From Laetiporus sulphureus 93-53 (Eukaryota; Basidiomycota; Agaricomycetes; Polyporales; Laetiporaceae), in NCBI RefSeq assembly GCF_001632365.1, contig NW_024468540.1, forward strand, positions 241,955 through 305,954: a stretch of DNA of 64,000 nt, in the 5' to 3' direction. How positions within the stretch are numbered: position 1 is the stretch's first letter; each line of letters starts with the position of its first letter. A program made the translations under genes and the position numbers. The notes under the pieces were generated by a model. The model worked only from the letters and a program-made list of their open reading frames with translations, did no database searches and was not told the DNA's origin. Positions 2,259-63,590 of the stretch are shown piece after piece.

Positions 2259-5200
2259 ATGGAGGGGCCCAAGATACGTATTCTTGTTGATGTCCCGGCA
2301 GTTTCAGGACGCCCGCAAGGGCGTCTGGTGATTCCGATAGCATCAACGCACACGGTGGGCCAGCTTGCCGAGGAGATCGTGCGCCGGAGAGGATTGGGCC
2401 GAGAGATAGCATCCCAGATTTCGCTGGCCCTTCCCGATGGATCTCAGCTCTTTCCTGAAGACCAGGTGGGGGATGTGATCCACGCTGAGGAAGTCATACG
2501 TGCATATATCGGGTCAGAGCCCCCAGTTCTGGTTTCACCTCCTCCTGCATCCGCCGTCGTTGATGGGAATGTGGCGCGCACAAATTCCAACAATATCGGA
2601 AGAAAGAAGAATGGAAATCGCAACAAGAGAAAGTCAAAGGCTTTGCAGCAAGTGCACGCACAACCTACCAGCTCCGCCACCGTCGACAACCCGCCACCTT
2701 CCAGGAAACGTGTGAAGATAGCCGTTGTAACCCCGGAGCTTGCTCGCAACGATAGGAATGATGGGAATGAGGAGGTGGGAAAGCTCATGGCATTCCAGGG
2801 TAGTTCCGTTAGTGTCGATTTGCCCATGGTTAGCCTTCCATGTTTCTCCTCACAGATATTTGCTCATGATCACTGCCAGGGTGAAGTGCGCAGAGAGATC
2901 GCCCGGACTCTGGGCTGGCTTGAGAACTATCCTATTGCAGCAGATTATCACGAGAATCAAAGTGCGGAAGAAGAGAAGATTCGAGGGTCATGTGCATGCA
3001 CCGTGGCGAATCAGATCTATTTAGGTATACGGTCGTTTGGCTCAAGCATGCGCATACATGTCCTCATTCATTCTGCAGAAGGCCGTTTCGAGCAGCTTCA
3101 TTGCTCCAGGGAGATCAACGGTCAGCGATGTTTTTTTCAATGTCGTTATTCCCATGCTGCCCTCGGTAACAATCTTCCCATTTTACACTGATAGCCGGCT
3201 CATTATCTATCGACGTAAGGTGACGGAATACTCCGCAACTCTCTGTCTGATCTGGCAAGTATGGAGTGTCCAATTTGCATGGAATTATTCGGTATGGATT
3301 TGTTTCAGATGTGTCAGAGAAATAACGAGCTTGTTCTGACCACGTAATTACGGAGAATAGGATTCCCTTGTGAGAAATGCATTATCAAAGCCGGTGAAGA
3401 TAAAAGCGCCGCTTCTGGTGCTGAGAATATCAGACATTGTCCTTTGGTGCAGGTGTGCTGTCCGTTTCACTTTCCACATTTCCTAGCTCACTGTGTGCCT
3501 TTAGAATGCCGGGTATGTCTTTAATTAATCTATATATTCCCTTGGATTGACTTCATCTCTGTTTCTATGCATGTAGGTGCAAGCACATCTTTCATGCACA
3601 TTGCTATTTTGCCCGAACATCATCCACTCAGGGATGTCCCGCTGGATGCCCGAGATCGTCATTCTCAGCAGAGGCCGTCCCGTTCGATATGCGAAGTATG
3701 AACCTCTTTATCATCAGTGCGTATTAGAAATCGCGCTGATCTCACCATCGCGCTGCAGAGCCTCACTTAGTCGTTGTGTATTCGGGATCGGTAATTGATA
3801 CGGTCCCGCTGCCTGAACGCTACACGAATGCAACAGACGAGATGATAAATCTTGATGAGTCTGAGTGTACGTGCGACTTGTGAAGGTGACTAGTTGTCCC
3901 ACTGACATTGATCTGCAGTGCTTGCCATCCTTACTAATAAGTATGCACACTTCGGCCATGGGCTCAGCGTCAGAATGGTGAGCAGTCACCTGTTACTTCA
4001 CCCACTACAGAATTGTATGATCATGTCGCCATAGTTTGGCAGGGCAAACACCGGGTATGTTAAGAAAACGTTTGAGTTCGTCAAAGCACGGCTTGATGTA
4101 TCACTTTTACAGAGTGGTGTCGTTCCGACACTCGACAATCGTGTCCATTTGCTGTGCTTCTCGTCATGACGAGCCAGATGGAATACGTCGCTTCGAGCTA
4201 AATGGCCCCTACCGCCCCGTGACTCGATCACAAGCTTCACTCTACTTACACACTGCGTCGTCGCCAATATTCAACCAGTCATCTGCTGTTTCCATCGAAG
4301 ATCTGGGCCTGGATTCTGAGATTCCAAATGGTGGCCAGCTCACGCTGTACGTCACAAGAGGGACTAAAAATGAGGAACCGGACGGGAAGAGAGTCGGAAA
4401 GGCGGCAGTGTACACGTACCGAGAGGAATGGGTAAGTAGCACCTCAGGATTTCAGAAAATTTGGGCCATCTGATGTGCACATTTATCCATTTGTAGCAAC
4501 CATCCGTTGGGCAAAGTGATCGCGGCATGGCAACGTTCTTATCTTCTTTGCTAGTCTTCGCTAATTATCTATCGTAAGACATCAGCCTTCAGCCATCACG
4601 ACTGTTACAGCTAAGACAATTCGCATAGCACCGCGGATCAGAATACAGAGCAGCAGAATATGAAGCACAGAATGCTTCATCACCTCCTTGCTTTGACGTG
4701 CTTTCCTCCCGGTATGCACGTTTCTTCGTTCCACTGTCAGGTCTAACAATCCCCATCAGCGGTCCGGTCGTTGTACATCTTGATACAGAATGAGACGGTA
4801 CAACCAGAAGAAATGCGAGCATTATCAGACACAATGTATCACCTTGCATTAGATGTCGCGCATCCGCAGATCACCAAAGGTGATACCTCAAGAGTATTCG
4901 AAGGTGCTCGAATAATGTTCGGGGTTCTTATCGAACGTACCAAACGAATCTTCACCCTGCCGCAACATGATCAAGAGATTTCCACAATTCCTGTCTTCCA
5001 GGATGTCACCCTTGCCTGGTAAGCGTGCGCAATCGTTGAGGGATGCATCTATCTCACACTGACTGTGTTCTAGCGAGCTATCTGGAGAGCCGTTGAGGGA
5101 TCCCGTAGCCTTTGGAGGTCGGATAGTTGAGCGCAATGCAGCCAACGTCAGGCAACAAGGAGGTGCTCTATATAATCCCTCAGAGCCTATTCCGGTGATC

Positions 5201-8200
5201 GAGCCGGCCTTGCCAAGCTTGCGGCCGCTAATCCTCCAAATCGCGCGAAGGTCGCTGAAGCTCCCAGTGCTCAATAAGGCAATCCCACGCGTTACAGTCC
5301 TGTCTCGAAGGCTCAATAGCTTGCATTTGGCCGCTGCCATCGACATGGCCAATGTCGAGTTGCAGATTCATGCGCCTCTGAGCTTGCATCCTCCTGTGAC
5401 TACACCCTCATTAACGCTGGACCAGGCGGGGTATAACGCTGTGTACGTTTCACGTGGCGGACCATGTTCGCCTCCAGGCGAGGATGTTTTTCTCTTGAGA
5501 CCATGTCATGGAGGAGAGGTTGGAGTTGACGTTAATACAGTATGTTCATCGCTTCTCGAACGATCGGGACATTGATGCCAAGTGCGTTTCCTTGCACAGC
5601 TCGCTGTCGGCCTGCAGCCAATCATTGAGGCGCGCAAACGGGCAGGTGAATGGGACATTGATGCCTTTGGCAGTGCCAGGATGGATCGTGTTGACACCAG
5701 GGACATCGAGGAAGCCATTGGTGAGTTCTTGACTATTGGACACCCAATTTGTAAGCATGATTACAACCAACGACGCAGTGGTCGCCTTAGATATATCTCG
5801 TTCTATGGAAGAAAACTTCAATCCGGATGACGATTTCGAAGAGCAGAATGATCCAGATGAAGCTGCTTTGAAATATGTTCGCGAACAAATTGCCGCACGG
5901 CAAGGTAGAGGAGAAATACAAGCTGCTCTGACTCGAGGTATGCGCGTGTTAGTGATATTGTCAATCTTCGCTTAAGCTGTTGGCGTCCTGCAGCGAAGGA
6001 GCATCTCATCAACTTGGATTGTATGCCTAGCATCGTCCGGCATGTCTATCATGGACAGGTTGCGACACAGAGGTCTTGGTGGGGTAACGACAATAACATC
6101 TCCAGGAGAGAAAGAGTTGAAGCAGTCATTGATGAGCTAAAGGTTTTGTACATTCGTCAACACTGGCAGATGAGCCAGTCCGGTAACAATTGTGCCACGT
6201 CGATGTGAGTAGTCTTCCTGGAATTCGAACATTAGTTAGCAGTAATCACCTTGTCCAGGTTGCATATCTTGGAAGACTTCATCGCCGCGACGGAATATCC
6301 TGCTATGAAAGACCAGCTTGTCGAGCATCTGATGAAACAGGCAGCCACTGCTCGTGAAGTCTCTAGTGTTCGCACTGCACGTAATATACCGATGGTGAGT
6401 CTTTTTACTGTTGACACATGCACTCAATGCAGGACTGATATACGTCTCATCACAGAATCTAATTGACCCGTTGAGTGGCGAAATCTTCCGGGATCCTGTC
6501 CAAGCAAGCGATGGTATGAGTTTTGCGCTCAGGTTTTGAGAACTCTGATGGATCTCTTTTACAGGACTCGTCTACGAGCGTAGCAGTATAGAGGCATGGC
6601 TCAAGGCTCACAATACCTCACCAATGGACCCGACGGTGGAACTGAACCGTGGTTACGACTTGATGCCAATGAGAAGCATCCAACGGTCTGCTCTTGATTT
6701 CAGGAATGGGAGGCCGCGGGCTTTCTTGCAACCACAAAAGCCGCTCCTCGTGAAGATCCGCCATTATAGTCAAGAATATCTGTACATTGCACATCCGCGA
6801 CCGAAATCATTGCTCTCTATCTTGCTGGACGAGTGGTCTTTCTGGGACCGTAAACCATCTTCAACGAGAATGTGGCACGGTTTGTGACAGATAGCACTGA
6901 CCATATGTCCTAAATTTATGTTTTCCCAGGACTGAAGGATTATGGTGACGGCAGCATGCGTGGCAGTGCTCTCATGCCTCAGACCCTGACCTCCAGTCTA
7001 AGTTCCGAAACGGAACAAATAGCGGGTAAATTGCCAGCCGATTCGCTGACTTTGGATCGCCGCGGTGAGTCGTATTCACTTTGTTGTTTCACAGTGGCAT
7101 CTGTGTGTCTAATCAGGGATGGCAGCATGGCATCATATAGCCTCAGGTTCAGAGCGGCTCCGCGCGGATTCCCGATCACTGAGCAGGTACGTGTGCTATA
7201 TGTACTTATTCCAAAGCCTAATCCCGGATCGCTCTCAGATTAGACATTGTCAAACAAGCATTCGAAGCGTGGGTACTCGAACACTCTACAAGAGCGCTCA
7301 TACTGAAAACCTTCATGATTAGTTTCGTCGACAAGTCGGAGGCATTCAATTATCCGGTGGCCATAGGTAATGTGTCATCAGTGCGGCATTGCTGTCAATG
7401 TTGAATTGAGATCCCAGGGATAGTCACATTCGGAAAAGAAGTTCGTGAAGTCCAAGTAAGTGTGGCGACTACCCGTTAAGGGCTTATCTGAAGATACATT
7501 TTTAAGCCGATTACGCTCCTCAAAGAAGAGTTCCGCAATACACTTCAAAATGTCAAAGTGGGTGCAAAAAAATCACTCTGATTCAATGAAGTGATTCATC
7601 CTTTTTTTCATCGCAGGCCGACGGCGACACACCTCTTTTCGACAGTCTTCATGTCGCACATACTATGCTGGAAAGGTTCAAGGCGGAGGTGTGGATACAA
7701 TCATGGCGTCTTCCGTGATCATGTGATAATCCTCCTTTACCCCAGCATCCTTCCGCCGCATCGAGAATTATCTGTTTGACGGACGGTAAGCCAATCTACG
7801 TGAAATATGGCGTATGTACGCTCTGATTGGTCGTTTTTTCACATAGGAGTGGATGTCAATTCGAAGATTAAAAGTCACGTCGTTACTGCCCAACTGCAGA
7901 GGTCCAACGTTATTGTTGATTCCATCGCGATGCAAACCGGCGGACTCAGGAACATTCTGCATCCTATATCTGTGGTCACTGGAGGATACTCCTTCAAGGT
8001 TGACACGGTATGCATAACGTGTTATTACACGTGAGAAATCATCTAACACTACTATGACATTTGCAAGCTCGAGAATGCCTTGAATATCGTTGCACTCGAA
8101 ACTGTTCTTTGGTCCAAGGATCGGGTTCCGCGAGTGGGTTCTGGTAATGATCCTTGTGTTATATGCACCTGATTTCGCCTTTGCAGCCTCCCAAGCCCGT

Positions 8201-9403
8201 CGTGAGTCAGCCATGGCAGCTTATGAAGTATAACGACACGTGGACATATCCTGTACGTATCATTCTTCCTCTGAACGCCGCAGCTCAACGTTTCTCAGGT
8301 GGACGTTGTGACCGCTGAAACATGCCCTCAACGCAAGCCACATGCTGTAGGATCCCACTTTTGGTCGTCCGTACACATACAAACTGACATACTGGTCCTT
8401 TATCGTAGCGCCTTCACGAGCCGCTGCGAGCCGCGCAGAAAGCTGCAGCACGGAGCATTCCGCCGTCGACTGACAGACAACGGCGTCTTATGCAGGAAAT
8501 TCGCAACATTGTTAACTCACCACATCGTTAGTAAACTGCCAAGTAATTTTCCCGAGCACGGTGAAGCTAATTTCTTTCACAGCGGCAATTGACATCTATG
8601 CTGGCGATGATCTGGCGTTCTGGAAGGTGATTACTCTAACTGGTGACCGCAAAGTCATCGATTGACTTGTTCGTTAGGTTGTCATAGAGGCTCCTCATGG
8701 GGTACGTAACTTCCGCTAATGATTTACGTCCAACTTCAATGACCATTGGGCTGCATCAGTCCCCTTACGACGGCGGTACATTTTTGGCGTACGTTGATTT
8801 CGGCGAGAGCTATCCTCAGGTGGCTCCGGAAATGTATGCATTTCGGTTCTTGCAAGGACGTGCATGACACTTACCCATCCTTCAGTCGATTCATAACTCC
8901 TATTCTGCACCCCAACATCAATCGTCACGGGAAAGTGTGCCATGCTGCATTGGACAGAGGCTGGCTTGTCGACATGACAATGAGGTGAACATTTTCTGGT
9001 GCAGGTCATCATGTTGAAGTGATCTAAGTGCTGATCCACGGTGAACAGCGTCATCTTGCAGATTCTCTACGGCCTCCTGCTAACCCCTGATACGGATAAC
9101 CCAGTAAGGTTCCTATCCCTTCGTGCGGTAGAAGCCCACTCATATCGTCTAGCTGGATTTGCATGCAACGATGGAGTACAATGATGACACCGGTATGACG
9201 CACGCGATACATTCTCTACCAGCTTTTGTTGACGTTGAGCCTCCATTTATCCGTAGGTCAACACGCTCTGAAGGTTCATGAGATGGTGAGCATCTAATGT
9301 GTCCGAGACATTACGGCTACTTCATCTCCATCCGTTGTAGGTGAGAAAACACGCCTCGAAAACAAGGCGAGACTGGCGGAACGAATTAGGTGGAGGTAAT
9401 TGA
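2259..9403 (+). CDS. Ubl-RING-U-box-VWA-E2 fusion protein (single-chain ubiquitin E2/E3 candidate)
   Basis: About 39 short exons splice in frame into roughly 1,650-1,700 residues. Order of parts: ubiquitin-like N-terminus (2265-2510, KIRILVDVP...VIRAYIG); basic linker; RING-type finger (3271-3655, CPIC, CEKC, CKHIFHAHC, CPAGC) over five exons including one of 8 bases (3505-3512); a middle region; a U-box-like stretch at 5074-5210 (ELSGEPLRDPVAF); a clear U-box at 6457-6680 (IDPLSGEIFRDPV, VYERSSIEAWL); a VWA domain at about 7240-8130 (VAIGIVTFG, DGDTPLFDSL, RIICLTDG); and an E2 domain at 8450-9403 with SPYDGGTF and the catalytic stretch HPNINRHGKVCHAALDRGW. E2 asparagine and cysteine are both present. 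The stop is TGA at 9401-9403. Known biochemistry of RING/U-box and E2 families suggests a self-contained ubiquitin ligase; VWA may bind partners. Function is inferred, not shown. A broken paralogue lies at 48.4-49.5 and 61.4-61.6 kb. Confidence 0.85.
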
Positions 9404-9960
9404 TCTTTGACCAGCTCGCGCTGTAAGGTCCCTGTAGGAAGCACGATTGAGAAGTTCGGTATTTCTTTCGTTAGCGTGCATCATGTATTTCGAAATCCTG
9501 TTAATATTTAGTAAAGCTTGGAAGCCTCCCCGAAAATCATCGTTGAATCTTCAATGCAATCAAGCCTCAAGTTTATATGCAACAGACATATACAATGTAC
9601 ACATATAATGAGAGCGGCGGCCGTTCTGTTGACCTCGCACTACTGCTGACCGGGAGTTTTGGAAACAATTATGGAAGCGGATTTGGAGCGGCGGGTGCCC
9701 TTACTTCTAGGGCCGTAACCTCTTGATACGCGCCCGCACAGGAATAGAATGGTGGCTCAGTTTCGTAGCACCATATTGAAGACCGAGGAGAGGAGATGCA
9801 TGTCCAGTACGTGAGCAAAGTACTTTTAATTCTTGTAGCAATCAGTATCGCTTCTTGACAAGTAGTTGGCGGCATGCTACACTGGCCATGGACGACTTGC
9901 AAGGATCGAATCGCTCAAGGGATTGTTTATTCAGCGGTATGCCGAGATTTTAGCGTGAGC
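9404..9960 (+). repeat. Downstream flank shared with the inverted paralogue
   Basis: After the stop codon of the E2-fusion gene, similarity to the inverted copy (48430-49080) continues through about 9960, in patches such as ATATTGAAGACCGAG, GGCGGCATGC/GGTCGGCATGC and TTCAGCGGTATG. In the copy this stretch is open on the minus strand (48664-48365, starting MMAQSHMFSTTILKTE), whereas here the matching frame from 9751 (MVAQFRSTILKTEERR) meets stops. It is either the 3' UTR plus a decayed neighbouring gene, or conserved non-coding sequence. Confidence 0.6.
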
Positions 9961-11450
9961 TTCGGATTTACTGCGCATTACATCCAGAGCCTGATGCAAT
10001 GTTGGGGATAGCCCCGGCAAGCAAAAGCAGGAAAGGATGCTCGACTGGTGACGATGGCATTGAACACACTTCGATTCACCACGCTAACTGTGCGCTTCTT
10101 ACAGATTCAGGCGATGGAGCAATATGGTAATGCTCGTCGGTGTATCTTCGCAGGCGGAGATGAGAGGGAAGCTTCAACGTCAGTTTGATTGCCCATCGCT
10201 CGGATCCTGATTGTCCCTCACCGGTGCAGTGAAGTCACATCAAATCTCAGTTCATCAGGACGGCAGCACGACGGAAAGCCGTTGAGCGGACAGTGACGGC
10301 AGCAAGACCAAGCGGAGAATGGGCTGTTACGTGCAGAATGAACGCATCCCTTCAATGTGACTATCATATTTGAATTTGTGGCACAGATTCCGGTGTTACG
10401 CCATCGAGGTTGTCTCTTCAGTAAGCATTTGAAATGGCAGATGGTGGGAATGGCTTGGCAAGAGCAACCGGCTTGAATATCAATGGCAGGCACATCAACT
10501 GACGAAGAGCGTGATTACACTGAACTCAGGGGCGGGGAGAAAGCAAAGCCGGAACACGACTCTGCGCATTAAGTATGCCACTTGGTTCTTTCGACGGTGC
10601 CATCATCGTTTGCCTCCACGTAGTATGAGCATCCTACTAGGTGCACAACGCAGGGAAATCGCAAATTTCAAACAGAAAGAAAGGGTCCCTCTGTGCCATT
10701 GTACCGGATATACACGTCGGAAGTTTGATAAAGCTGAGCTTCGAAGCTTGAAGCTTTGAAGGATCGTCTCTGTACGTTTCGGCTGCAAGTGGAGCGATGT
10801 GGAGTCAGCTGAGATTTGTGCCTTGTAGCGAAGCAGTCGCAATCCAGCGACAACCTCAAGATGGCGACCAGAGGAGTCTGAACGGCGAGAACGAAAACTT
10901 CTAGTGGACCTCGAGGAGAGGAAGGTTGCTGAAGACAATAAGACAGAAGCGTACAGTCGGACGGCCACCGCGACTGGTCCACACGTGACCGTGAAAGGCG
11001 AGACGCGTTCCTGGGTGCACATTGCCGCACCTAACGAGACACCATCATTTCTCTGCAAGTTAGCTTGTCAGATATCCCGCTTGTATGTGTGGATCGCGCA
11101 GTGAGGCGGCTGGGCAGCCATGCTGTACAGCGGTCCATCACATGGAAAATGTGATATTAGGTCAGGATTGAGCGCGGACACTGGCGCCATCATGATGATG
11201 TCCGGGTCTCGGTGCGTTTCACTTCCTGCGTTCCCACCAGCAACAGCCCTTTTGGTAGCGATGTCTCTTCATAAAGTTACAATGCGGCGATACGGCCCAC
11301 GTAGCAGCAGTGTAATTCTCTCCACATCATGCACGCGCCGTTCAATCTGTCATAACGTCGGAGTCCAGCTCGTCCTCTATCCGTATTCTCAGGATATACC
11401 GTTTTCGTAGTCATTGGGATCGTCCTTCCGTGTTCTTGCTCCCGACCATC
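9961..11450. other. Intergenic region upstream of the G-alpha-like gene
   Basis: About 1.5 kb without a frame that I can support. Several short ORFs exist on both strands but show no splice-consistent extension or recognisable motif. The promoter of the G-alpha-like gene must lie at its right end. Confidence 0.5.
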
Positions 11451-13995
11451 ATGGCCGTCCTGACGATGGACTCACCCGACCCGTTGACGCTCGCGATGGC
11501 ACCCCCCAAGGACGAGTCACCCGCCGATCGTTGGGCCCGGGAACAGAGAGAGGCACAAGCTCGTCTGATCAGCGAGCAGATCGACGCGCACATCAAGGCA
11601 GAAAAGCAGGCCATGAAAAAGCGTGGCAAGCCCGTCAAGGTGCTTCTGCTCGGGCAGAGCGAGAGTGGCAAGTCGACTACTGTGAAAAGTATGTCCTATT
11701 CCTACTGCACTGCTTTCGCCATGAAGAGATTCCGGCGTATTATTGCGAGGGCGCAGGTCTTCTCCAGCTCCAGGAAGAGTTCAAGACTGTTCCTAGAGCT
11801 GAAAGATCGTCTACGTCGTAGCACTTCCGCTGTCCTGATTTCTCATCCATCGGTCACCGACTGTATGACCGCGTGCTGATGTCAGCGTTTTACAGATTTC
11901 CAAATGGCATATGCATATTCGTCTTTCTTGCAAGAGCGTTCCGCATGGCGTGCAGTCATCCACCTTAATCTCGTCCGCTCCATCAACACAATTCTAGACA
12001 CACTCGGCAAGGAACTGTCAGATTCACGATCGCAACCGCAGTCCACACGCTCCATGTCGCCGGCTCGATCGCACACTCGACCTTCCACTGCACAGGTCCG
12101 CCCTACCGTTTCAGATAAGGCGAGCACTCTACCTCGGCCCTCTACCGCTCGTACCAAGTACAGCCCTTCCATCGACACGGAAAATACACTGGTCAACCCT
12201 GTTGCAGGGGACCTTGATCCTGACACTGAGGATGATGGAGACGGCGAAGAAGAGGCATCGTCATTTTCGACATTGACGGATAAGCACCGTGTTCTCCAAT
12301 TACGTCTGGCACCGTTGCGACATGTGCAACGCGATCTGGAGCAGAGCCTTGGTGCAGCTACAAGTGAGGCCCCGGGATTTAGAGGGGATGCTGCTCCATG
12401 GACACGCCAAGAAGATCTTGCTGAACGTCGTCCGCGTGAATTCTTCATCACAAGCCGGACAGGGTGGAAGTCTGCACTCAATCGTGTCAAGTCTAGCTAC
12501 AATGCAGTGAGACGGGCCTCGCTAGGTTCGAGAGAGGATGCGGGCGATGCAGATGAGAACGCCATGTCGAATAAGAGAAAGGTGCGTTAATTTCCTCACG
12601 ATCTCCCTTATTTCCGTCTTTATTAACGGCACATAGCCATACGACAGGCGACGTGGACGACCGATTTCACCATTTGCATTCATGAATCGCGATGACAGCG
12701 ATGACGACGCTGATTGGTCCTCTCACACCGGCGAGTGCGAGCCACAAGCACAGACAGCCGCTGAGATCATCTCATCATCCGCGGAAGACATGGTGGCGTT
12801 GTGGGCGGATCCCGACGTGCAAGCTATCTTGGCGCGCCGGAAAGTCAAGTCCCGTCTGGAGGAGGGTCCGGGGTTGTGAGCCCATTTCTACTGTGGACAC
12901 GCTCTCCGCGGGGCACTGATTGACGAGCTCGGTATCTGTGATTGCAGCTTCCTCAACGACGTTGCTCGTGTTGCAGCACGTGATTATGAACCTTCTGACG
13001 AAGACGTCGTGCGAGCTCGTCTGCGGACCATGGGAGTGCAGGAGTACCGATTCAAGTTTGATAAAGGTGCGTATCGCCTCATCACTTCTGCAGACTGCGG
13101 CACCATTGCATCTCGCTCATTGATCAACTCAGGAGGCGTTGACGCGGGACGCGAGTGGATTCTCTACGATGTAGGCGGAGCTCGGTCCTCCGTGCGTGCA
13201 TCATGCATTATTCTGCGATCATCAGCTCATCTGACCGACACTGTACACAGCGGCATGCCTGGTACCCGTACTTCGACGATATCCATGCGCTCATCTTTCT
13301 TGCGCCCATCAGCTGCTTTGATGAGCGACTCGCGGAGGATCACCGCGTGAATCGTCTCCAGGACAGCCTCATGATTTGGAAGGCGGTATGCGGGTCCAAG
13401 CTGCTTCGTCATGTGCAGCTAATTCTGGTGCGTCCCTGTTGCGCTGTATGACTTGTCCCCCCCTGTCGCTGACATATCCCCCGTCGTGTGCGTGGGAACA
13501 GTTCTTGAACAAGTGCGACCTCCTGCAGAAGAAGCTGTCGCGCGGCGTCCGGGTCGTCAAGTACGTTCCCAGCTATGGTGATCGGCCGAACGACGCCCAG
13601 TCCGTCGCAAAGTGTGCGTATAGCGCCCATCGGAGTTCACGTATCGGTCTCACACTTTCGCAGATTTCCGCCAGCAATTCAAGGACGTGTTCATGAAGCA
13701 GTCGCCTGAGAAACGAACTTTCTACTCATATCTTACATCTGTCATTGTGAGCCTTGCTGTCTGCCTAGCGGCTTTCCTTTGAGTGATCTTTTGATACTTG
13801 GCATGATATATAGGACACGAAGGCGACAGCTATCACCGTTGCTACAGGTACGCATATGGAGTTAAATTTTCTCCTATTCAATTCTTCTTATCGCTCTGCT
13901 GGCGCATCTGATAAGTGGATGATCGCTAACTTGCTTGCGTTGCAGTGCGGGATGGCATTCAGCGCAATTACATGAAAGACGCCGACATCCTGTAA
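11451..13995 (+). CDS. G-protein alpha-subunit-like GTPase with large insertion and DVGGA switch II
   Basis: Nine or so exons splice in frame from ATG 11451 to TAA 13993-13995. Seen in order: an acidic/basic N-terminus without a Gly2 myristoylation site; P-loop LLLGQSESGKST (exon 1 ends about 11689); NFQMAYAYSSFLQERSAW after a 206 bp intron; a long polar insertion (Ser/Thr/Asp-rich, 12000-12280) inside the helical domain; switch I region ARLRTMGVQEYRF; switch II DVGGARSSRHAW split by an intron after ARSS; FLAPISCFDERL; and the guanine-specificity motif FLNKCDL. In classical G-alpha the switch II sequence is DVGGQ and that glutamine helps hydrolyse GTP; here it is alanine. As I recall, expanded basidiomycete G-alpha-like families also carry DVGGA. 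Receptor coupling is unknown. Confidence 0.88.
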
Positions 13996-21190: not shown

Positions 21191-21907
21191 TCAAACTGAG
21201 TGCCTACGCTGACCCCTACTCCTCAAAATTTGTTCATACGCCTTCAATTGCCGCATGAACGCGCTGTTAGGTCTCACAACCTTCCTTCTTGAGATGACAT
21301 GCTTGCATGCAATGTCGAACGGCATCTTCTCCACGGCCATGAGATATGCGATCACGACGCTGGCACTCCTGCTCATCCCCCACACACAATGGACCATCAC
21401 TTGTCCCTTTTGCTCAAGCGCTTGGGCGATCCACTCTACGACAAAGTCCAAGTGTCCGAGAAGTTCCGCCTGGCGAGAATCGTCGATGGGGACCCAGACA
21501 TGCTGCATTGGTTTTGGGAATCGAGGACAGTCGTGCTTGATCACGGATGCGACGTGGGTGATGCCCAGTCCACGCACAACAGCCGGTGATGTGGCAGTGT
21601 AAATGTCGCAGACGAACAGTCCCGGAACGATCTCGCTTGCCTGGGGATGGAAATCGTCCAGTGGCGTCTTCTGTATGCACGTAGCGCGCAGCGCTCGACG
21701 CTCAAAGAAGTCGTCATCGAGACTCAGAGAACGAAGCATGGAGACAACTGAGTCTGCGCGAGGAGGGGACGAACACCTCTGCGGATGTAGGTAAGCGAAG
21801 TGCTGCAAGTTGAAGTGCCGAGCCACACTGACCTTGGCCACGCCTCGACGGGAGACGGTCTGACCGTCAGAAACAGGTAGGGTCTGCGTCGTATATGTGC
21901 AGTCCAT
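21191..21907 (-). CDS. Dual-specificity protein phosphatase
   Basis: An uninterrupted 238-residue reading frame. The phosphatase domain occupies about residues 80-230: EIVPGLFVCDIYTA at its start, a general-acid loop around HVWVPIDDSRQAELL, and the signature HCVWGMSRSASVVIAYLM, which fits H-C-x5-R-S with catalytic cysteine and arginine present. A recognition tail PNSAFMRQLKAYEQIL follows, as in atypical DUSPs. The first 75 residues are not conserved-looking and could be partly untranslated or regulated. Likely removes phosphate from phosphotyrosine/threonine of kinases; substrate unknown. Confidence 0.92.
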   Translation of the reverse strand: MDCTYTTQTLPVSDGQTVSRRGVAKVSVARHFNLQHFAYLHPQRCSSPPRADSVVSMLRSLSLDDDFFERRALRATCIQKTPLDDFHPQASEIVPGLFVCDIYTATSPAVVRGLGITHVASVIKHDCPRFPKPMQHVWVPIDDSRQAELLGHLDFVVEWIAQALEQKGQVMVHCVWGMSRSASVVIAYLMAVEKMPFDIACKHVISRRKVVRPNSAFMRQLKAYEQILRSRGQRRHSV

Positions 21908-49700: not shown

Positions 49701-50028
49701 CCTTGCATGTGATTGATCAACCCACGCATCGGCCTCCCTCCGTGATCCGGCGTGCTCTGATCCTCAGGAAGCCTTGCGCTGCGCCATCATCCCCACATGG
49801 TTCTGCCATCATCCCCGCACGGAGCCCCGCCCTGCTGTCATCACCCCCGCTCTTCCTGTATAACGTCTCTTTCCCGCCCCCGGCAGTCAGCGCTTCGGAC
49901 TACTTCACAACTCGGCTCCTTCCATCATCCCGTTCTTCCATAACTGGTATCTCCATGTGCGCTTTCGCTAGCTTCCTCATCATTCGTTCTGTTGTTCCAT
50001 AACTGGTATTTTATGCACTCTCAACTCC

Positions 50029-50728
50029 NNNNNNNNNNNNNNNNNNNNNNNNNNNNNNNNNNNNNNNNNNNNNNNNNNNNNNNNNNNNNNNNNNNNNNNN
50101 NNNNNNNNNNNNNNNNNNNNNNNNNNNNNNNNNNNNNNNNNNNNNNNNNNNNNNNNNNNNNNNNNNNNNNNNNNNNNNNNNNNNNNNNNNNNNNNNNNNN
50201 NNNNNNNNNNNNNNNNNNNNNNNNNNNNNNNNNNNNNNNNNNNNNNNNNNNNNNNNNNNNNNNNNNNNNNNNNNNNNNNNNNNNNNNNNNNNNNNNNNNN
50301 NNNNNNNNNNNNNNNNNNNNNNNNNNNNNNNNNNNNNNNNNNNNNNNNNNNNNNNNNNNNNNNNNNNNNNNNNNNNNNNNNNNNNNNNNNNNNNNNNNNN
50401 NNNNNNNNNNNNNNNNNNNNNNNNNNNNNNNNNNNNNNNNNNNNNNNNNNNNNNNNNNNNNNNNNNNNNNNNNNNNNNNNNNNNNNNNNNNNNNNNNNNN
50501 NNNNNNNNNNNNNNNNNNNNNNNNNNNNNNNNNNNNNNNNNNNNNNNNNNNNNNNNNNNNNNNNNNNNNNNNNNNNNNNNNNNNNNNNNNNNNNNNNNNN
50601 NNNNNNNNNNNNNNNNNNNNNNNNNNNNNNNNNNNNNNNNNNNNNNNNNNNNNNNNNNNNNNNNNNNNNNNNNNNNNNNNNNNNNNNNNNNNNNNNNNNN
50701 NNNNNNNNNNNNNNNNNNNNNNNNNNNN
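50029..50728. other. Assembly gap of 700 N
   Basis: Round-number run of N inside the transposon, immediately before a 78 bp minisatellite; the preceding bases also contain a repeated CCATAACTGGTAT. The gap is probably a collapsed tandem array of unknown true length. Confidence 0.98.
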
Positions 50729-50945
50729 CACAGCGAGGACGATACATCGAGCCTCAGCATCTCGATGCATCGTCCTCTCTCTGCGCCACTCGTCGCCTCT
50801 GCTCCTCACAGCGAGGACGATACATCGAACCTCAGCATCTCGATGCATCGTCCTCTCTCTGCGCCATTCACCGCCTCTGCTCCTCACAGCGAGGACGATA
50901 CAACATCGAGCCTTAGCATCTCGATGCATCGTCCTTCCTTCCTCC
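50729..50945 (+). repeat. 78 bp minisatellite (about 2.8 visible units) with internal hairpin
   Basis: Units start at 50729, 50807 and 50885 with CACAGCGAGGACGATACA. Each contains two near-perfect inverted arms, GAGGACGATACATCGAG and CTCGATGCATCGTCCTC, around CCTCAGCAT. Because 78 is a multiple of three, all frames stay open and give spurious 26-residue repeats (MHRPLSAP...). The array continues into the gap. Each unit also includes the GATGCATC word found at the transposon ends. Confidence 0.9.
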
Positions 50946-61363: not shown

Positions 61364-61589
61364 GTTGGGGTGCAGGATAGGAGTTATGAATCGACTGAAG
61401 GATGGGTAAGTGTCATGCACGTCCTTGCAAGAACCGAAATGCATACATTTCTGGAGCCACCTGAGGATAGCTCTCGCCGAAATCAATGTATGCCAAAAAT
61501 GTACCGCTGTAGTAAGGGGACTGATGCAGCCCAATGGTCATCAAAGTTGGACGGAAATCATTAGCGGAAGTTACGTACGCCATGAGGAG
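61358..61589 (-). pseudogene. Inverted, broken paralogue of the E2-fusion gene: upstream E2 exons
   Basis: On the minus strand 61589-61358 matches 8690-8921 of the intact gene, with about ten differences over ~230 bases counted by eye. It keeps both the intron sequences and the exons SPY..GTFLAY, FGESYPQVAPE and RFITPILHPNIN, and stops in HPNIN, exactly where 48430-49507 takes over. Two changes alter the SPYDGGTF motif to SPYYSGTF. The left edge is the transposon target duplication; the right edge at 61589 abuts a copia LTR. Confidence 0.88.
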
Positions 61590-63590
61590 TGTTATGAACG
61601 CAACACTACGTCTCAGCCGTGCCGTACAATGGCGTACTCAACTCTACTACTGTACCTGTTATGAACGCAACGCTACGTCTAACCGATAAAATCAGTCCAA
61701 TGTCCGATAAACGAAAGGGAAAACGTGTCCGAGACTCACCTCAGCCGTGCCGTACAATGGCGTACTCGACTGAGGTGTCTACTACGAGAAACGCGTCGTT
61801 ATGTAGGTGCGCGCCAACCACGTGACCGCGCTGTCAAACCCGTCAATCCATTCCTCCCCATTCTCCCCATCGCTCCTGAGCGGTCTCGTTCCAACACTCC
61901 CCCTAGACCGCGACACCCAGCATGTCCAAATGTTTGCGAAGGGTGGGCTGTGCGAGTGGCTTGGTGAAAATATCAGCGGGGTTTTCGGTCCCGGGTATGT
62001 GTGCGATATCAATCTGTTTTTGTCGTATCGCTTCGCGCAACCAATGATATCGGACGTTGAGGTGCCTGATGCGCGTAAAATTTACCGCCCTCTTTGCTAG
62101 ACTCTCCCCACCTGTGCTGTCCATCCTTATGACCACTGGAGTGCTGATCGGAAGGAACACGTCAACCATGAACTTCTCTATCCACAATGCCATCTGTCCG
62201 GTATGAACAGCCGCAATATACTCTGCCTCGGTGGTCGATAGGGCCACAACCTCCTGGCAGCGTGAGCTCCAAGACACAGGCCCACCTGCCATGATCATAA
62301 TGTGCCCCTGCGTCGAATGGCCAGTGTCCGCGCAATCAGAATAGGATGAGTCCGAGTATAGGACAGGTTGGAGGCTCGACCTTGGGTGATCCGCGCTGTA
62401 GTAAGTGATCCCATAGTCCACTGTCCCCTTGATATAACACAGCACTCTCTTGAGGGCTCGCCAATGTTCAATCCCCGGATTTGCCATGTATCGGCTAAGA
62501 ACCTGCACGGAATACGAGAGGTCAGGGTGAGTTGCGACAGAGAGATACATGATCGATCCCAGTGCCTCGCGGTATGGGATGGTTGCCATCTCCGTTGCAT
62601 CATCAGGTGCAACAAGGTTAGTCAGTTTCGAAAGCTTCATGCTGGGTTCCAGGGGCGTCGAGACAGGATTCGCATCTTGCATACCAAAGCATTCTAGGAC
62701 ACGCAAGGTGTATGCATGTTGGGTCAAACACAGCGTGCCTTTGGCTCGGTCACGCTCGATAGCAACCCCAAGCATGTAGGTGAGCTCGCCTCCCCCACTA
62801 AGCTTGTAGCGTGCCACTAAGTCCCCGTGAGTAACGGCTAGCCCATCCGCAGAATCGGCAGCAGAAGTGATATCGTCCGTATAGGTAGCGGTGATGGAAA
62901 GACCATGATCGTCAATGCGCGCACGAATGCACTCATCGGTGCAGGACCGCATGAACCCCAAGTCCTGGTAAGTGCTGTCGAGATCATTCCACCATTCATG
63001 GCCAGACTGCATTACCCCATACAGGGCATGCTCCAGCGCACAGACTCAAAATGGACAACCGATGCGGTGGTCTCAAAGACGTCGACGCCCGGGATTTGAT
63101 GGAACCCCTTGGCTACAAGACGTGCCTTCAGTTTCCACTTCCCGACATCATTGTACTTCTGAGCATATGCCCACTTGCACCCCACAACGTTCATGTGATC
63201 CTGGTGAGGTACGAGCTTCCAAGCACCAATTTTGATTAGACCATCCATTTCTTTGTCCATCACAGGTGCCCATATCTCGCTCGTAGCCATGGCCTATTTG
63301 TACGTGGTAGGACAGGTCCCGCCTTCATATATGAATGGGTCTGATGAAGCAACAGATGCAGAATGACCGTCGGCGGTGAATGCCGCAATGTAGGCCGCGG
63401 TCGACGCGATCTCATCGTTGGCCCATGATTCACCATGCACGCGGGCCTCTTTCTCATGCTGGGTGGCCTCTCGTGACTCTCGCAGTGCTCGGCTTTCGAC
63501 AGGTTGCCGCGTTGATCGGCGTGGTACAGGAACGGATAAAGGGGCGGGAGCGAGCGCTGGTGCGGCCGTGTCACAAAGCACAAAGCACTT
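61590..63590 (-). mobile_element. Ty1/copia retrotransposon, defective
   Basis: Orientation is minus, so the 3' LTR is on the left. It begins at 61590 with TGTTATGAACGCAAC right after AGGAG of the E2 copy. The LTR region contains internal duplications: TGTTATGAACGCAAC recurs at 61657, and CAGCCGTGCCGTACAATGGC occurs at 61614 and 61742. The polyprotein remnant follows from 61903. Insertion beside the E2 exon means the paralogue was hit at least twice. Confidence 0.75.
61903..63581 (-). pseudogene. Copia reverse transcriptase-RNase H remnant with internal deletion
   Basis: 63290-63030 encodes the beginning of the copia RT (KEMDGLIKIGAWKLVPHQDH, NVVGCKWAYAQKYND, KARLVAKGFHQIPGVDVFET), then the frame changes around 63040. 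The frame resumes in LYGVMQSGHEWWNDLD and then TYTDDI (the Y-x-D-D active site), so roughly 80 residues around the first catalytic aspartate are missing. The RNase H part is present: LYSDSSYSDCADTGHSTQGH, ALSTTEAEYIAAVHTGQMAL, VIRMDSTGGESLAKR, and the end LTR-proximal DIFTKPLAQPTLRKHL. Upstream (63581-63294) is the integrase/RT linker, separated by an in-frame TAG before AMATSEIW. Not functional. Confidence 0.9.

Follow-up and report, generated by a model that had tools for sequence, protein, structure and literature searches.

Ubiquitin-conjugating enzymes (E2) and ubiquitin ligases (E3) are normally separate, short-lived partners, and the step of ubiquitin transfer is therefore hard to trap. 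Can one fungal polypeptide hold both, and do they then act on each other? This question is raised by the gene LAESUDRAFT_814008 of Laetiporus sulphureus 93-53, a polypore (Basidiomycota) with a genome of 38.6 Mb in 124 contigs. The gene lies in a stretch of 64,000 nucleotides of contig NW_024468540.1, referred to below as the window, and was originally predicted, from the sequence of the window alone, to combine ubiquitin-like (Ubl), RING, U-box, VWA and complete E2 domains in a single polypeptide. Our analysis indicates that the gene product is probably an E2/E3 hybrid for ubiquitin in a single chain, a member of an old family here named the VWA-U-box-E2 family, and we propose a partnership, within the chain or in a dimer, between its U-box and its E2 domain. 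The solid basis for this is one chain with its domain set, the conserved E2 cysteine and VWA metal-site residues, the insertion of the U-box (from sequence spacing and the predicted structure of a homologue), shared ancestry, and two layouts of the same domains, as shown below.

Gene structure and domain composition

A homology search with the draft gene model retrieved the deposited, uncharacterized protein LAESUDRAFT_814008 (P0001; 1613 amino acids). Spliced alignment demanding exact translation placed P0001 on the forward strand of the window at 2259..9403 (stop codon included) with zero mismatches and in 42 exons; the claim of one spliced frame carrying these domains is borne out, with frame and coordinates correct and an exon number of 42 instead of the estimated ~39. 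All 41 introns are of the GT-AG type (46-69 bases; median, 55). Three introns (2829-2879, 3025-3078 and 7269-7322), of lengths divisible by three and free of in-frame stop codons, had been retained in the draft model; the final model matches P0001 exactly. No second full copy of the gene was seen in the genome of strain 93-53, where the matches comprised E2 genes, two Ubl paralogues, and fragments. The gene is real and already deposited; it is apparently undescribed.

Pfam searches of P0001 yielded UQ_con (residues 1458-1592; 96.2 bits, cut-off 27), U-box (residues 1035-1078; 36.7 bits, cut-off 21.4), VWA (residues 1226-1376; 34.2 bits, cut-off 23.8) and VWA_2 (residues 1215-1319; 39.7 bits, cut-off 27). 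The matches to U-box and E2, on which the original prediction had been staked, are both significant, and the predicted VWA is likewise recovered. The E2 (UBC) domain spans about residues 1452-1592 (8466..9282) and is complete, with its HPN motif at residues 1527-1529 (8908..8916) and its catalytic cysteine, Cys1537, at 8938..8940. Its best matches among solved structures, by sequence, are ubiquitin E2s, including ubiquitin carrier protein (2r0j, 3e95), E2 4, and UBE2D2. The U-box spans residues 1038-1105 (6456..6710). No HECT or RBR domain was found in the P0001 chain with Pfam, and a BIR domain was absent from the Pfam matches to E 0.01 (P0001) and E 1 (draft model).

The N-terminal part of the prediction stands only in part. 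Eight zinc ligands with RING spacing are present at residues 284-349 (3267..3649, interrupted by introns), a pattern that none of 500 shuffles of P0001 reproduced; the corresponding zf-rbx1 match (residues 283-346) reaches 20.8 bits against a Pfam cut-off of 31, and the cluster is therefore named RING-like here. Residues 1-85 (2259..2513), which we take as ubiquitin-like by appearance, gave no Pfam match; the assignment is further based on two segments of the 93-53 genome that are paralogous to it. These paralogues (L017 and L018, contig C39; 52-55% identity) lie in long open frames of 450 and 514 amino acids, and downstream of the second lies a kinase-like open reading frame (ORF; VHGDLRSNNIM...VIDYDW), an arrangement presumably reminiscent of Crinkler-type proteins. 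Between Ubl and RING-like cluster, the basic stretches GRKKNGNRNKRKSKAL and PSRKRVKI (2598..2720) resemble, in our reading, putative nuclear localization signals.

The VWA-U-box-E2 family

A total of 70 distinct homologues were retrieved, and VWA, U-box and UQ_con occur together in 55 of these according to precomputed Pfam lists. The census is a lower bound, since two of the searches scored only those 7988 and 7991 candidates, respectively, that shared most words. Members with a named source come from Basidiomycota, Ascomycota, bony fishes and two sponges; a further member, P0032, is a EukProt entry labelled as complete ORF of comp21825_c0_seq1, which we take to mean a transcript assembly, and has VWA, E2 and U-box. 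Judged from these sequences, the family is old and widespread, and not confined to basidiomycetes. The strict eight-ligand RING pattern was found in 8 of the 70 proteins; P0034 has a RING match of 55.5 bits, and a RING is in the precomputed Pfam list of P0036.

Some deposited models look faulty: that of P0003 (Antrodiella) is without the U-box stretch and also carries PF15469, and that of P0005 (Abortiporus) stops just past the U-box. Residues 784-959 of P0006 (Postia) match another part of the window, 31510-30943 (-), so this model may merge two loci.

Searches beyond eukaryotes were negative within their scope, i.e. one scan each, with two short E2 patterns and based on an animal-type alignment: none of 15 pattern matches in IMG/VR and none of 105 pattern matches in prokaryotic genomes was confirmed as a relative by tblastn.

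The U-box as an insertion in the VWA fold

The VWA domain of P0001 is in two parts. Its first strand (residues 866-878; 5711..5807) carries the metal motif DISRS, and its second part (about residues 1222-1380; 7170..8091) the metal-site Thr and Asp (GDT and LTDG); the columns of these three elements are conserved across the family. The gap of about 340 residues from the DxSxS metal motif to the next VWA helix holds the U-box, and the insert (about residues 881-1221; 5814..7169) consists of helices, the U-box and a poorly predicted linker. In the predicted structure of a close homologue, a single VWA fold is closed across the U-box-bearing gap. The U-box, as spacing and homologue model indicate, is placed inside the VWA fold as an insertion; both are in one chain, as had been predicted, and they are not neighbours. 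The spacing counts (27 + 27) used 54 of the 70 proteins and leave out P0003 (131; the model without U-box stretch) and 15 more in which the motif was not found (12) or mis-hit (P0040, P0055 and P0062).

Structure comparison of the homologue model gave Ssl1/p44 of TFIIH and Rpn10 of the proteasome as top-scoring VWA folds. These share the VWA fold of the LAESUDRAFT_814008 family, whereas their VWA is contiguous, of about 190 residues in the listed chains (e.g. 4wfq), and has neither a U-box insert nor an E2. The E2 parts of two homologue models (the close homologue and a fish) match solved E2 structures; VWA structures and, with the fish model, E2 structures take up the match lists, so that the remainder of each model is hardly covered.

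Among 14 proteins scanned with Pfam, two layouts were found. With the inserted U-box (layout A), the U-box match precedes the VWA match in six of seven proteins, the seventh (Mycena, P0010) being without U-box; in layout B the U-box is C-terminal to the E2 in all seven, including the animal members scanned. Inserted and C-terminal U-box align with 98.8% probability (hhalign; E 4.1e-16), which alone is no proof of a move, since all U-boxes are related. In an unrooted maximum-likelihood tree of the rest of the VWA plus E2 (36 of the 70 proteins; the branch of P0070 is long, and the composition of two fish rows is odd), proteins with the inserted layout are set apart from all others by a branch with support 95/94, recovered in 94% of 200 bootstrap trees. 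As the root is not fixed, the direction of the layout change is left open. Ascomycetes and basidiomycetes separate in the tree as vertical descent predicts.

A U-box-like remnant (CELSGEPLRDPV..VER; 5017..5140) upstream of the VWA was also considered. The equivalent animal segment aligned with its own U-box (hhalign, 97%), whereas in fungi the values were only 1-11%, so a conserved remnant in fungi is unsupported. The N-terminal Ubl, a second Ubl-like stretch and the region after the U-box each aligned with the animal Ubl at a probability of <1% (hhalign).

Relation to known systems

BIRC6 (BRUCE) and UBE2O have been named E2/E3 hybrids (PMC13061254), and LAESUDRAFT_814008 resembles them in having E2 and E3 functions, here as predicted, in one polypeptide. 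VWA or U-box are not named in the descriptions of BIRC6 and UBE2O excerpted from that source, whereas LAESUDRAFT_814008 has a classical U-box and the RING-like cluster. By domain content LAESUDRAFT_814008 belongs to the E2/E3-hybrid kind; being without BIR, it is not a BIRC6 relative.

The VWA and U-box pair itself has precedent: Marin (2010) described it in Monosiga, Naegleria and other protists, with no E2 named in the relevant passages (PMC3087547), and VWA is among the domains joined to U-boxes in Chlamydomonas, according to an excerpt of PMC4378952. Mb_UBOXa of Monosiga and its protist relatives have VWA and U-box in one protein, as here; compared by their description, which in these passages is without E2 and has the gene absent from animals, they differ from the present family, with its E2 in the chain and its fish and sponge members (PMC3087547). 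UIP5/UBOX5 shares U-box and RING with LAESUDRAFT_814008, and is described in the same passages without E2 and without VWA; its activity needs the U-box and not the RING (PMC3087547). Fungal clade 6A PARPs, as excerpted, carry a C-terminal UBCc domain and are, like LAESUDRAFT_814008, multidomain fungal proteins ending in an E2 with its cysteine, with a PARP catalytic domain where LAESUDRAFT_814008 has VWA, RING-like cluster and U-box (PMC2964712). The VWA-U-box-E2 combination is not mentioned in the excerpts of PMC4327156 and PMC11354881, and no study of it was found among titles and abstract starts of open-licence papers in PubMed Central.

Proposed mechanism and alternative explanations

In every one of the 65 proteins that carry the E2 motif, a Cys occupies the catalytic position (the pattern did not demand Cys); of the five proteins without the motif, P0005, P0021, P0037 and P0038 end upstream and P0008 has the Cys in the alignment. 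In the mechanism that we propose, a ubiquitin-activating enzyme (E1) would charge the C-terminal E2 domain at Cys1537, and the U-box inside the VWA fold, possibly aided by the N-terminal RING, would engage the charged E2 of the same chain or of a dimer. The VWA, with its metal site intact, and the N-terminal Ubl/RING region may hold a substrate or partner. The loop that follows the DxSxS motif carries the U-box, and a ligand or metal bound by the VWA could therefore position the U-box and thereby switch the enzyme; in sequence terms, the insertion point together with the kept metal site suggests such a coupling. Docking of the N-terminal Ubl to the proteasome, as also put forward in the original prediction, is speculation.

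Several observations weigh against a U-box-E2 partnership in its simple form, and against the hypothetical self-contained ubiquitination machine of the original prediction. In the basidiomycete E2s (10 of 10 scored), Cys+2 is Ala and the counterpart of UBE2D Asp117 is Asn; the UBE2D residues at these two positions are linked to ubiquitin transfer onto lysine. The ascomycete group (n = 20, including P0064, assigned by tree position) has Ser at Cys+2 throughout and Asp at the Asp117 position in 13 proteins; in the other seven the pattern was unmatched at this position, where the printed sequence reads Asp. The remaining 35 E2s have Ser (28), Asn (6) or Val (1) at Cys+2, and 33 of them Asp at the Asp117 position. 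Further, UBE2D Pro95 is an E3-contact residue, and its position is Pro in only three of 63 family E2s (those of the 70 matched by the pattern), so the E3 contact may be unusual. In Agaricales the U-box has decayed, the DG..YER core being lost in 5 of 5 proteins, none of which has a U-box in the precomputed Pfam lists (the assignment to Agaricales was checked for Collybiopsis confluens and for Roridomyces, and is presumed for C. luxurians and two Mycena). The RING match stays under its cut-off, as given above, and the homologue models, with predicted template modelling scores (pTM) of 0.51 and 0.50, do not establish an E2-U-box interface.

The domains may be fused and not partnered, an explanation to which we assign a real but minor probability: the E2 would use separate E3s or its own RING, the U-box would recruit other E2s or be a structural part of the VWA, and the fusion would serve co-localization only. 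The 5 of 5 decayed Agaricales U-boxes fit this explanation, in that the E2 cysteine stays and an E2 can evidently persist without the U-box, as do the rarity of Pro at the P95 position and the status of the cis interface as a proposal. Against it, U-box and E2 are kept together in a single chain throughout the tree and in either layout, and the U-box has shifted relative to the E2 yet stayed in the chain. Given the substitutions in the E2 and the decayed U-boxes, the E2 may work with other partners, in some lineages if not in all.

A somewhat less probable explanation is changed chemistry in basidiomycetes, where the E2 would hand ubiquitin to a cysteine or a non-lysine target, similar to UBE2L3, which passes ubiquitin to cysteine rather than directly to lysine. 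The Ala and Asn of the basidiomycete E2s, as opposed to Ser and Asp in the ascomycete group, speak for it; on the other side, the Asn may still serve, functional E2s, UBC9 among them, can have Ser or another residue at Cys+2, and the chain has no HECT or RBR partner domain. That annotation merged two adjoining genes is very improbable, even if the one-gene structure comes from protein alignment and homologues, not cDNA, and the deposited models of some relatives (P0003, P0006) appear merged or faulty, for a split would cut through the single VWA fold, and homologues (55 of 70, with P0032 as a labelled complete ORF) hold the same domains in one chain, which makes two transcripts unlikely.

The partnership of U-box and E2, within the chain or in a dimer, remains our preferred reading. 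Its most far-reaching version, which we offer tentatively and consider rather doubtful as a whole, is that the VWA metal-site loop bears the E3 element in a chain that also bears the E2; that VWA ligand or metal gates intramolecular ubiquitin transfer; that the U-box moved, in either direction, between a site behind the E2 and the VWA loop within the chain; and that basidiomycetes altered the E2 surroundings and the Agaricales U-box decayed.

Other features of the window

Two fragments of the 3'-end of the gene lie on the opposite strand, at 61589-61357 (-), corresponding to 8691-8923 (96%), and at 49507-48514 (-), corresponding to 8917-9903 (84%); both share the seven bases 8917-8923. Their arrangement would fit a single partial copy into which ~11.85 kb was inserted, with target duplication. 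An ORF of 369 amino acids at 61903-63012 (-), which we read as the end of a copia-type retrotransposon, is followed by a stretch resembling a long terminal repeat, which extends up to the gene fragment at 61589. At about 50000-50800, within the presumed insertion, the translated ORFs read X. Neighbouring genes, assigned from motifs, are a presumed G-protein alpha subunit-like gene at about 11386-11876 (+; GQSESGKST) and a presumed dual-specificity phosphatase-like gene at 21191-21907 (-; HCVWGMSRSA).

Significance

In a family with E2 and E3 in one chain, and in two layouts, structural studies find a pair that nature has pre-assembled, and control of ubiquitin transfer by a VWA domain becomes testable. 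It also provides an example of a U-box placed within the fold of another domain whose metal site is retained. If active, the VWA-U-box-E2 family would extend the short list of E2/E3 hybrids by a branch that has members in fungi and fishes.
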